Notes under the pieces: model-generated
Database searches by the model: none
Seen by the model: only the letters and a program-made list of their open reading frames with translations
Told to the model about the DNA's origin: nothing
NCBI RefSeq assembly: GCF_014490665.1
Contig: NZ_CP061038.1
Span: forward strand, 310,001 to 374,000
DNA length: 64,000 nucleotides
From: Sphingomonas alpina
GTDB lineage: Bacteria; Pseudomonadota; Alphaproteobacteria; Sphingomonadales; Sphingomonadaceae
Direction: 5' to 3'
Made by a program: the position numbers and the translations under genes
Shown here: positions 6,473 to 61,563 of the stretch, one piece after another
Layout: every line of letters begins with the position of its first letter
How positions within the stretch are numbered: the first letter of the stretch is position 1

Positions 6473-6906
6473 AGGTATTTCCTTGGGTAGACGGAGCCGG
6501 GAAGAAAAACCGAAAGCACCGTCCGGCCCCGGCCGGTGCATCTCGAAGGCGGTCGCGTCAGTCGCCCGATGGGGCGAAGACGTTGCGAAATGGATGTTGG
6601 CCAAGTGGCGTTTCGAGGTCCAACGGTCAGCTCCGAAGCTTAAAACAAGCGGGAGCGCGAAGGTCTCTCAGTCGTGCGATGCTTGTGGGCAATTTCGCGC
6701 GATGAGAGAGCTATAGCATGGTTTTGTGGAATTGTCGCATCGTTTAACTCTGGGTTTAACTCTGGCCCTATTGTCGCCTTGTCGCCGCGTAATACCGGCA
6801 TGTCGTGCGCACCGGCGACAGCGTCCAGCGCTGGCGCGTTGTTGTTGCAGGCGGCGAGCTTTCCCGAAAGCCACCGACTCAAGGCGCACCGATTCGGCGC
6901 TACCTG

Positions 6907-7009
6907 CTTCCCCGGCAAAGGCCGGGGCCCGGTGGGTGAGCATTTGTTGGCCTGCGCTTCGCGTTGTTACCTCGGCCTTCTCGACTGGGCCCCGGCCTTC
7001 GCCGGGAAG
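6907..7009. repeat. Inverted repeat, GGCCGGGGCC family
   Basis: Near-perfect 23-bp arms at 6907-6930 and 6987-7009 (CCCCGGC-A-AAGGCCGGGGCCC against its complement). The same family recurs with perfect arms at 42925-43025. This copy lies in the roughly 850-base stretch 6473-7325, which has no convincing gene. The rest of that stretch holds only the palindrome at 7099 and the leader of the two-component operon. Confidence 0.8.
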
Positions 7010-7098
7010 CCGCAAAGGTGGATCGCATCAACTGGATTTGGTTTTAGTATCTGAAATACAAGGATATTATACCCTTACGCTAACGCGGCGGCGGCAGG

Positions 7099-7128
7099 AG
7101 ATATGGTACATTCCGGTGTAACATATCT
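7099..7128. promoter_or_regulatory. 30-bp palindromic element, copy A
   Basis: Imperfect palindrome with half-sites AGATATGGTACA and TGTAACATATCT around TTCCGG. It is 29/30 identical to copy B at 24164 and matches the reverse complement of copy C at 61361. A GATTCAA block follows 25 bases later, and the spacing is the same in copy B. It sits about 200 bases upstream of the response-regulator start, so an operator is possible. A short open frame from 7103 (MVHSGVTYLPAVLLPAVIQ) runs through it, so a small coding element is the other reading. Confidence 0.6.
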
Positions 7129-7325
7129 TCCGGCAGTGCTGCTGCCGGCGGTGATTCAAGCGCTGTCCAGGGTCGGGCATATCATCACCTGCCGGACAGA
7201 TACCGGCGCCGGGATTGCTGCAGCCGCCGGCGCAATGGTCTCGCACTCCACGCGATCTCCACAATTCTGTGAAAACATTGTCGGACGGCACTAAGCCGCT
7301 TGTTGACGAAGGAGTTTGGCCGGCT

Positions 7326-19586: not shown

Positions 19587-19663
19587 CGGGGCGTAGCGCA
19601 GCCTGGTAGCGCATCACACTGGGGGTGTGGGGGTCGCAGGTTCGAATCCTGTCGCCCCGACCA
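19587..19663 (+). tRNA. tRNA-Pro (anticodon GGG), CCA encoded
   Basis: A 77-base cloverleaf: acceptor CGGGGCG pairs CGCCCCG; D stem GCGC/GCGC; anticodon stem TCACA/TGTGG with loop CTGGGGG, giving anticodon GGG for CCC/CCU codons; T arm GCAGG-TTCGAAT-CCTGT; and an encoded ACCA end. It is the boundary between the Sec operon and the accessory region to its right. Confidence 0.97.
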
Positions 19664-19688
19664 AGATTTCCACATCAGTATATGGTTG

Positions 19689-22856: not shown

Positions 22857-23531
22857 TTACACTTCTTCGACATGCTGTGAGCGGCCTAACCCATCGCAGG
22901 GGAGGTCATACCCCCTGAAGCCGTTTTCTATCAAAAACTGCCCAAGCTCCTGGCCCAAAAAGAACCGTTGAAGCCGCAAATCATACCAAAGCGCCTTGCC
23001 GGATATCATGGATTTCCTGACCGCGATCCTTGTCCTGCTATCGAAATTGCTGCGGTAATAATACCAGCCAGGGTGCTGATCGGGCTTCGGACGATATTCA
23101 TAAACGTCCGCACAATGCTCAAGCGCAATGGCGTCGACCCGGTTGCATATGTGCATAAGCCAGCGCGATTTATCGACCGTCCCGTCCTCCAGAAGCACTT
23201 CCATGGGAAAGAATTGGTGAACGCCGGGCTCAAATCGTTCCACGGCGTCCTTGAAGCGCGAGCTCGCACCGGCGGGGGGTGAATGGTCGGGAAGGGGGCC
23301 AACCGAGTGGACAACCGACGTGACGAGCGGAAAGGCGGGTGATTCTGGATATGGGATGCCGGATGGTCCGCCGAATTGCCAGACATGGTCGGGATGTTCG
23401 GGCGGCAGCGCTTCCAGCGGCTGGCGCTGCTTTGCCCGGACGGTTTTCAACCAATCCTTTGATCGTTCATCCCATTCGAGGGTCGGGCAATCCTCGATAA
23501 GAATACTGTCGCATCGCAGCCAGGCCATCAT
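22857..23531 (-). CDS. Imm11/DUF1629-family immunity protein
   Basis: A 224-residue soluble protein matching the Imm11 (MXAN_0049, DUF1629) pattern: FKDAVERFEPGVHQFFPMEVLLEDGT, then SRWLMHICNRVDAI, and a C-terminal segment WYDLRLQRFFLGQELGQFLIENGFRG. Family members neutralise toxins of polymorphic secretion systems. No toxin, Rhs or VgrG gene is visible in the window, so this is an orphan or acquired immunity gene. Two ATG codons at 23531/23528 are possible starts. Confidence 0.75.
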   Translation of the reverse strand: MMAWLRCDSILIEDCPTLEWDERSKDWLKTVRAKQRQPLEALPPEHPDHVWQFGGPSGIPYPESPAFPLVTSVVHSVGPLPDHSPPAGASSRFKDAVERFEPGVHQFFPMEVLLEDGTVDKSRWLMHICNRVDAIALEHCADVYEYRPKPDQHPGWYYYRSNFDSRTRIAVRKSMISGKALWYDLRLQRFFLGQELGQFLIENGFRGYDLPCDGLGRSQHVEEV

Positions 23532-23992: not shown

Positions 23993-24163
23993 CTCAGCAA
24001 CATCACCGCATGGGTGTGTTTCCACAAGCGAGATTACGGCGCCAGTTTACTCAACTCCTGAACTCATAGAATGCACCGCTTACGCGATCGCTTGCCAGGT
24101 GAGCTTAAATATCATTTATATTCAAATAGATACCTGGTAATTCGCCGCACGCCCTGTTGCCAG

Positions 24164-24193
24164 AGATATGGTACAATCCGGTGTAACATATCT
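24164..24193. promoter_or_regulatory. 30-bp palindromic element, copy B
   Basis: AGATATGGTACA and TGTAACATATCT flank ATCCGG. It differs from copy A by one base. GATTCAA again begins 25 bases after its end. It lies 62 bases before the terminase-like gene. A 37-codon open frame from 24168 (MVQSGVTYLPRPLLRASIQ) parallels the frame in copy A. Confidence 0.6.
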
Positions 24194-24255
24194 CCCCCGA
24201 CCTTTGTTGCGAGCCTCGATTCAAACCCCATGCAGACCCGGTTATCGCAGGCAGC

Positions 24256-24744
24256 ATGGAAACCCGTCCCTCGACCTTTGACCCCGATTATGTCCGCCAG
24301 GCACGCGAGCTTTACGCCGAGGGTCTGACCGATCGCGAGCTGGCCGCAGCCTTCGGCGTCTGTCGCATGACGATCTTCCGCTGGCGCGCCGCTTATCCCG
24401 AGTTCGCCGAGGCGACCCGGCTCGGCAAGGAGGTCGCGGATGACCGCGTGGAGCGCGCGCTGTACGAGCGCGCGATTGGCTATGAGGAGGAAGCGGTCAG
24501 CGTCTATCACCCGGCCGGCACCGAAGAACCGGTGATCGTGCGCTACAAGCGCGAGGTGCGCCCAGATGCCGCCGCCGCACTGCAGTGGATGCGCGCCCGC
24601 CGCCCCGGACTCTGGGCACGACCGACCCCGCCGCCTGAGAAGGATAAGAATTGGGCCGAAGAACTCCGCAAGGCGGCGGCCCGGGTCGCCAACCGGAAAT
24701 CGCCGGAATCTCACGAGGCGCTGCGCTATCATGCCCGAGAATAA
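24256..24744 (+). CDS. Phage terminase small subunit-like protein
   Basis: A 162-residue protein with an N-terminal helix-turn-helix (ARELYAEGLTDRELAAAFGV, CRMTIFRWRAAYPEF) as used by terminase small subunits to bind phage packaging sites. The middle block (VERALYERAIGYEEEAVSVY) and the DAAAALQWMRARRPGLW end are also typical. Its stop overlaps the start of a large-subunit fragment by 14 bases, the usual phage arrangement. It looks intact, but no other phage gene survives nearby, so it is a prophage relic. Confidence 0.75.
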   Translation: METRPSTFDPDYVRQARELYAEGLTDRELAAAFGVCRMTIFRWRAAYPEFAEATRLGKEVADDRVERALYERAIGYEEEAVSVYHPAGTEEPVIVRYKREVRPDAAAALQWMRARRPGLWARPTPPPEKDKNWAEELRKAAARVANRKSPESHEALRYHARE

Positions 24745-24900
24745 TCCCGCGGCCGACGCCGCGCTGAAGGGCGTGACCGGACTGCGCAAATGGCAGCGCG
24801 AGGTGATGACCGCGATCCATGAGCATCTCAAAGATCCCGCGCCTCGGGCCACGGCATCGGCAAGTCCGCGCTGATCGCGATGCTAAACCACAAGCTGCGC
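24731..24900 (+). pseudogene. Terminase large subunit, 5' fragment
   Basis: From ATG 24731 the frame reads GLRKWQREVMTAIHEHLKDP, the N-terminus of a phage packaging ATPase. Near 24840 the frame is lost, and the Walker A peptide ASGHGIGKSALIAML continues in another frame, which indicates a small deletion. After about 24885 the gene ends in a GC-rich repeat block. Only about 50 residues of an enzyme normally over 450 remain, so it is inactive. Confidence 0.7.
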
Positions 24901-24904
24901 TTCC

Positions 24905-25032
24905 CTCTCTTGTGCCCCCGCGAAGGAGTGTAGGGTTGAACATGCCCCGCATGTTCAAAGGATCGTCCGGGGGACGATCCGACCCGACACTAGCACAGAC
25001 TGTGTCCCCGCCTTCGCGGGGACACAGAAGGG
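24905..25032. repeat. Nested hairpin repeat block that truncates the terminase fragment
   Basis: Outer inverted arms GTGCCCCCGCGAAGG and CCTTCGCGGGGACAC enclose two smaller palindromes (TTGAACATGccccgCATGTTCAA and GGATCGTCCgggGGACGATCC). Each inner stem is 9-10 bp. It looks like an inserted intergenic repeat unit. Confidence 0.7.
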
Positions 25033-61181: not shown

Positions 61182-61360
61182 CCAGTATGAGCGCGCGATG
61201 AGACAGCCGCAGCGGCTGGGCATGCGCCGATGGCGCTGCGGTTCTGTTCTTCGACAATCAGAAAGAGCGTGCCGAAAACAAGCCCGGCAAGTGATGACAT
61301 GCGCGATCCCGGGTGATGGTTGAATCGTCGCCGGCAACAGGACTGCGGGAGGGCGGCGAG

Positions 61361-61390
61361 AGATATGTTACACCCTATTGTACCATATTC
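61361..61390. promoter_or_regulatory. 30-bp palindromic element, copy C (inverted)
   Basis: Its reverse complement matches copy B at 26 of 30 bases. Downstream similarity with copy A continues on the minus strand: GATTCAA (61326-61320) and a stretch ending GTCATCACTTGCCGG against ATCATCACCTGCCGG in A. The copy-A peptide frame is here broken by a TAG and a 10-base insertion. No minus-strand gene follows before the GMC gene. The 61182-61563 gap holds nothing else. Confidence 0.55.
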
Positions 61391-61563
61391 CGGCGCGAAG
61401 CAGGCGGGCCACGCTGCCGATCGGGCCGAACTGCATGTTTATTGGGATACAGCAATGGGTTGGCGGCGCTACATCGCGATTTCTGGTATCCATCAATTTC
61501 GATAAATTCTCGCTCAGCTATCCATGGAATTGATAGCTGGGCCATCGACGTAGCGAATCCGCG

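Follow-up and report, generated by a model that had tools for sequence, protein, structure and literature searches.

Dispersed palindromes of Sphingomonas chromosomes as putative recognition sites of a resident, phage-derived terminase small subunit

The 64,000-bp stretch analysed here (the window; C1:310001-374000 of the 5,197,460-base Sphingomonas alpina genome, labelled G000) carries three copies of a 30-bp palindrome, one of them shortly before a gene for a terminase small-subunit-like protein. Is this a mobile element, a leader-peptide gene, a regulator's operator, or the recognition site of the protein encoded beside it? The copies lie at 7099..7128 (copy A, + strand), 24164..24193 (copy B, + strand) and 61361..61390 (copy C, - strand, opposite in orientation to A and B). 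All three had been reported in a first-pass annotation, and scanning the window with AGATATGKTACA-N6-TGTAMCATATCT at up to three mismatches gives these three matches, with none in 100 shuffles of the window. The reported identity of A and B (29/30) is confirmed; that of B and C (26/30) is obtained once C is reverse-complemented but not as read, since C lies inverted. It was also correct that the motif GATTCAA follows at offsets of 25 (A), 25 (B) and 35 bases (C), being inverted in C as TTGAATC on the opposite side.

Three copies is the right number for the window but not for the genome. The core ATATGNNACA-N6-TGTNNCATAT has 43 exact and four one-mismatch sites in G000, 47 in all, versus none for the same pattern read backwards as a control; the consensus search that the annotation had proposed, in case its three copies stood alone at chance level, thus returned many more than three. 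Among 295 Sphingomonas genomes, sites of this type (ATATG type, up to one mismatch) number 47 in G000, 38 in strain ERG5, nine in G653, six in So64.6b, one each in G622 and G680, and zero in the other 289; the four genomes with at least six sites are all among the 12 of the 295 that have the terminase small-subunit gene terS. (Per-genome terS counts from this genus scan are "at least" values, up to 12 candidates having been scored per genome.) The exact palindrome is absent from 396 other genomes sampled from the family, and copy A had no match in a plasmid collection. Our alignment comprises the 47 G000 copies and 36 of the 38 from ERG5; C48 and C57, which lie at the ends of contigs, were left out. 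In it, 77 of 83 copies lie outside ORFs as called by a simple GC3 rule. Of the 66 copies with neighbours called on both sides, 29 are flanked by convergent genes, 31 by tandem genes and six by divergent genes (raw counts without a genome-wide baseline). Tandem arrays are seen for some copies, with repeat steps of 57, 81 or 112 bp. The proposal of a dispersed mini-element was therefore right in substance: the copies are scattered, mostly extragenic and partly different between species.

A leader-peptide gene had also been proposed, from an open frame running across the palindrome. The ATG of that frame is built into the palindrome itself and is in place in 76 of the 83 copies. From it to the next stop the median is 38 codons versus 27 in shuffled controls, and runs of at least 20 codons (58/76, versus 60% in controls) are in mild excess. 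Despite this excess of open length the frames are not conserved, and GATTCAA falls in all three of them (offset modulo 3, 21/16/15 in the 52 copies in which it was found), so we rejected both the peptide and the frame as a gene. An RNA hairpin is disfavoured because the inner arm bases are often unpaired in G000 (as GG/CG in 15 of 47 copies); an Rfam search of the window matched only a tRNA, with no known structured RNA at the palindromes. A Xer/dif-like site was considered and set aside, since in each arm the conserved bases are at the end opposite to that expected of one.

Read in the direction of terS, the consensus runs from an AT-rich end with an IHF-type core, across about 43-46 bp, to the palindrome, then mostly 25-45 bp to GATTCAA and a variable module; many copies lack one or more of these parts. 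The IHF-type core of the consensus is TATCAGATACTTA on the other strand, and exact cores were scored as WATCARNNNNTTR, which we take to be the IHF consensus. Such predicted sites occur in 23 of 47 G000 copies and 15 of the 35 ERG5 copies taken into this test, against shuffle means of 0.26 and 0.16. All have one orientation, never the reverse; in 30 of 38 cases the distance to the palindrome start is 68-72 bp, and none is on the other flank in these 47 and 35 copies. The exact core is missing from the remaining 24 G000 and 20 ERG5 copies, all three window copies included. At the IHF-type position copy A has an AT-rich stretch (7043..7072, - strand) that is only a degenerate match to the family consensus, and copy B one (24102..24137, - strand) without the exact core; copy C has an extended AT-side module (61391..61561, - strand), common to a subgroup of copies and likewise lacking the exact core at the usual place. 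Counted from the palindrome start, AT-side similarity extends for 84-108 bp in 21 of 47 copies, less far or further in the others. On the other side, TTGAATC lies within 80 bp of the palindrome in 17/47 G000 and 29/36 ERG5 copies. A short module of about 140-200 bp is found in copy A (7153..7208, + strand, with GATTCAA at 7153-7159) and copy C (61209..61326, - strand, ending in TTGAATC at 61320-61326); a second module class ends near +345 to +369 (four ERG5 copies), and a third is terS with or without the large-subunit gene terL, as in copy B, whose GATTCAA is at 24218..24224 (+ strand).

The copy B core starts 90 bp 5' of the start codon of terS (24256..24744, + strand), which encodes a 162-aa protein with helix CRM. 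This protein matches Pfam HTH_23 and the PHROG terminase small subunit (E=3.1e-29); its predicted structure (mean pLDDT 78) has the Sf6 terminase small subunit as its first three fold matches, at probabilities of 0.95-0.99 and E-values of only 0.035 or worse. With an HTH, an oligomerisation region and, at other loci, an adjacent terL, TerS has the features by which a small subunit is recognised. G000 has six full-length terS paralogues and one fragment, and the palindrome core lies 89-91 bp 5' of the ATG in all six; upstream of the fragment there is none. Across 44 terS loci the upstream palindrome is of the ATATG type in 16, of a TGTCAG type in eight, of a CCCTGTT type in three and none of these in 17, 12 of which are G652, G653 and G658 loci with diverged TerS. 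GATTCAA is upstream in 39 of the 44.

At position 2116288 of G000, terS is followed by an intact terL. The product matches the PHROG terminase large subunit (E=2.7e-39) and, as a predicted model, the fold of Sf6 gp2 (E=1.6e-16); Pfam Terminase_6C gives 0.028, below cut-off. Residues G80-S86, D184-E185, D309, D363, D466 and D469, which we take to be its motif and catalytic residues, are invariant in a 24-row alignment. ATPase, RNase-H-like nuclease fold and catalytic residues identify it as a large subunit. At the remaining G000 terS copies terL is truncated or absent; terL remnants lie at window copy B (24731..24885, + strand; a broken gene, given as description only), 1654792 and 932392. In the loci read, intact-length terS-terL pairs number one each in G000, ERG5, QA11 (G537), G536, G680, G652 and G653, three in So64.6b and none in five G658 loci, and terS adjoins terL in eight of the genomes. 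One pair has the same neighbours in three species (G000, So64.6b and ERG5), namely DUF481, M20-peptidase and AstA-like genes. A second So64.6b pair adjoins lepA, where G000 keeps a partial terL, and the third adjoins a response-regulator gene that in ERG5 has a palindrome beside it. Ten neighbour proteins at six terL loci include nine that match ordinary cellular families and one that matches nothing; no capsid or portal protein was recognised among them. By the Nei-Gojobori method (own script), dN/dS is 0.06-0.35 among 13 terS copies, those without terL included, and 0.05-0.40 among nine terL copies (0.15-0.19 between G000, So64.6b and ERG5); by these estimates the tested copies of both genes are under purifying selection. 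Another terL lineage, diverged from the first (about 70%), is intact in G000 at 3572287 (L114 2995-4506) and in So64.6b (L113 4001-5494), with no terS in either fetched locus.

If TerS recognises the palindrome before its gene, other palindromes in that place should be dispersed too. This prediction held. Two further palindromes, chosen by their place before terS, were searched for in 20 genomes. AATGTCAG-N8-CTGACATT (up to two mismatches) has 29 sites in G680, 13 in G653 and six each in G536 and G537, with 0-2 in the other 16; TTCCCTGTT-N2-12-AACAGGGAA (exact) has 24, 29, 18 and 20 in the same four, one in G652 and none in the other 15. The CCCTGTT family has an AT-rich stretch between two palindromes; the exact IHF core occurs in 3 of 19 cases, against a shuffle mean of 0.19, and two of these 3 come from orthologous loci.

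Palindrome type also tracks TerS type. The helix CVRTIYRW is found at all eight TGTCAG loci and at none of the other 36 terS loci, and the three CCCTGTT loci carry other helices. On the terS side, each of the 16 ATATG-type loci has either CC or AA as its inner dinucleotide, which appears to track TerS residue 38, the second residue of the predicted recognition helix (37-46). Residue 38 is Ser in nine genes, all with CC (9/9), and Met (2) or Thr (2) at the four AA sites; the exceptions are L108 (Thr), which is CC, and the partial genes L111 (Asn) and L112 (Val), scored as CC. L111 has two candidate palindromes, of which the outer (CC) was scored and the inner reads TT; L110 has a shifted N-terminus. 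A one-sided Fisher test gives p=0.019 for these 16 genes, ignoring ancestry, although several are orthologues or close paralogues. Between L063 and L064, whose sites differ as the rule predicts, the proteins have 10 differences over 162 residues; four fall among the first 75 residues (17, 36, 38 and 59).

The reading that we favour, at a probability of about 0.6, is that the palindromes are dispersed cognate recognition sites of a phage-derived TerS that is resident, together with TerL, in some Sphingomonas chromosomes. It draws on the 47 sites against none in the control, the fixed-distance site at six of six full-length terS genes, the dispersal of the two palindromes predicted from terS position, the tracking by residue 38 and CVRTIYRW, the excess of IHF cores, the purifying selection, the pair that is syntenic in three species, and the TerS and TerL assignments. 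Counted against it are the 17 of 44 terS loci without any of the three palindromes, the helix-rule exceptions just named, the many copies without GATTCAA or the IHF core, and viral relatives that lack the site (see below). Mechanistically, a TerS dimer would read the two half-sites, as the covariation suggests, and IHF may bind and bend the AT-rich site some 45 bp away, to judge from its consensus, single orientation and spacing. By analogy with lambda cosB, TerS and IHF might then build a cos-like complex for TerL, an ATPase-nuclease, to load on. GATTCAA is, by position alone, a candidate nicking site (cosN). Older terS-terL units would mostly have decayed to terS-only or site-only copies, the site being retained while its specificity shifted along with TerS.

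The site itself differs between G000 and ERG5. Arm 1 has TT in 34 of 36 ERG5 copies; in G000 it has GG in 31, TT in 15 and GT in one. For fourteen G000 loci the corresponding place in ERG5 was identified by a match on one flank or both, and at eight of these both genomes carry a site (317101, 748419, 1212862, 2070615, 2204464, 3277024, 3300352 and 3812053; three rest on one near flank). There ERG5 has TT at all eight and G000 has GG at five, in a set that is biased towards conservation because most members, 3277024 excepted, were picked up in G000 and in ERG5 by one and the same pattern. The ERG5 element at the place syntenic to copy A is L231. At the other six loci no site was found in the ERG5 stretches scanned (up to three mismatches, spacers 3-11), which were hand-picked and for 759957 and 287681 covered only part of the gap. 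QA11 and G536, a 95-96% identical pair, have most sites in common. This, with dS of 0.39-0.84 among the six G000 terS genes, weakens the idea of a recent transposition burst. Integron-like cassette exchange was also considered and set aside, resting as it does on two cases in which a glycerol-3-phosphate acyltransferase gene (PF02660) adjoins the palindrome, in G000 at 287681 (L017 802-1449) and in QA11 (L194 2291-2953); the gene is absent from L207, the G536 counterpart of L194.

Could the copies instead form a MITE-like transposon family, with ordinary termini, an unknown transposase and terS-terL as cargo? Several size classes share one core, as such a family would have. At 1225353, the only clean empty site, G000 has 468 bp and ERG5 just 11 bp, and in some of the QA11/G536 loci (L188-L217) the start of homology coincides with the palindrome (L119/L122, L200/L214) or with GATTCAA (L188/L209), an AT-rich motif keeping the same distance on both unrelated flanks. 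By eye, however, the empty site shows no target duplication, no terminal inverted repeats were recognised, and the terS paralogues of G000 are old and constrained, which together make a transposon improbable. About equally improbable is the explanation that the copies are neutral relics of old prophages or satellites in which terS-terL was carried; it is suggested by the phage-type TerS and TerL and by the three terL remnants. Against it stand the selection on terS copies that have no terL, the site core that is kept while its inner bases shift, and the cellular families to which nine of the ten neighbours of terL belong. Viral genomes themselves give little sign of the arrangement: 80 viral loci with TerS relatives were kept, and the 31 inspected have no upstream GATTCAA and, one lone half-site apart, none of the three palindromes, while generic palindromes scoring at least 9 are found in 0/31 versus 15/44 chromosomal terS loci. 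(One viral locus with terS and terL relatives, L318, has the near-match GATTCAT.) The site was therefore not simply inherited from known phages.

The strongest rival, though decidedly unlikely, is that a RAYT (Y1 transposase) encoded elsewhere in the genome moves the copies as an ordinary REP/REPIN family, their link to terS being incidental. The likeness is considerable: our copies are dispersed, extragenic, palindromic, genome-specific and partly tandem or paired, with the same palindrome beside the linked gene, as in PMC3116915; the RAYT transposases described there are the one enzyme class for which a gene cognate to dispersed palindromes is described. Palindrome and gene are proposed to co-evolve over the long term, and RAYTs are described as single copies (PMC3116915, PMC3733652). 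Here, in contrast, the linked gene is a multicopy terminase small-subunit gene, not a Y1 transposase gene, and the element has an IHF-type core. Judged by eye in the aligned copies, the stem base is mostly GGAG/CTC, and no GTAG or CGTC tag is recognisable as a family feature (one copy, L247, reads GTAG). An incidental link would not readily account for six of six full-length terS genes with the site at a fixed distance, for the other palindromes predicted from terS and also dispersed, or for a site that tracks the TerS helix. The operator of a transcription factor, TerS-like or other, with the copies as its regulon, would fit the palindromic half-sites, the HTH protein and the site 5' of terS in the direction of transcription. 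When the first-pass annotation named a regulator's operator, it was right in part: a protein very likely binds here, but the candidate binder is a terminase small subunit, and the gene context is mostly not divergent. Because of that context (29 of 66 resolved copies between convergent genes, only six divergent) a regulon is disfavoured, and terL and an IHF core would be unexpected in a simple one; we regard it as highly improbable.

Recognition by TerS would have its nearest parallel in lambda, where TerS HTH dimers dock on R sites joined by IHF bending within the 120-bp cosB (PMC4669245). An HTH TerS with a putative recognition sequence and an IHF-type site directly 5' of terS-terL resembles that arrangement, but the IHF core here is beside one palindrome and not, as in lambda, between two R sites. 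The sites are, moreover, chromosomal, in tens of copies per genome and simpler in layout, with no cosN known. The RIB/BIME elements of E. coli (treated by Boccard and Prentki 1993), dispersed repeats with IHF sites at the ends of transcription units, are similar in pairing repeats with IHF sites and different in sequence, and we know of no terminase link for them. Phage-inducible chromosomal islands have their own terS and pac or cos site, with TerL possibly supplied from elsewhere. They share with our family a terS with its own site; here, in contrast, no island genes were seen around the copies, the sites are single and dispersed, and terS-only units are about 0.6 kb. We know of no system in which a resident terminase goes together with tens of dispersed cognate sites; a search of one open-access library (subscription papers being outside its scope) found nothing like it.

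What might such sites do? Tentatively, we suggest that they are dispersed points at which packaging or cleavage starts, so helping adjacent DNA to move between cells. TerS/TerL-assisted spread of the element within the genome seems less probable, and another chromosomal, defence or decoy function, or no present role, are each unlikely. The fuller picture, a speculative one, would be a domesticated packaging enzyme: TerS and IHF would mark tens of cos-like sites, TerL would act there, flanking DNA would be packaged or exchanged between cells, and TerS specificity and the sites would co-evolve genome-wide. If so, phage packaging machinery can turn into a resident chromosomal system, a terminase-based counterpart of REP/RAYT. 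The natural TerS-site pairs would serve for reading a TerS recognition code, and the purpose of dispersed bacterial palindromes becomes testable in named strains (ERG5, So64.6b, QA11).

Some features around the window copies are of a different kind. Synteny with ERG5 (87% over 12.6 kb) ends at window position 19669, just past a tRNA gene (19587-19669), and resumes on another contig from 25300; the intervening segment, with copy B and terS, looks like a tRNA-linked island and also holds a gene for an Imm11-family immunity protein (22857-23531). At 24927-24987 there is another dispersed repeat, with 94-96% matches at about five scattered ERG5 places. Beside copy A, at 6903-7006, lies a different repeat again (ccccggc..gccgggg type), with several partial ERG5 matches at query positions 304-412.
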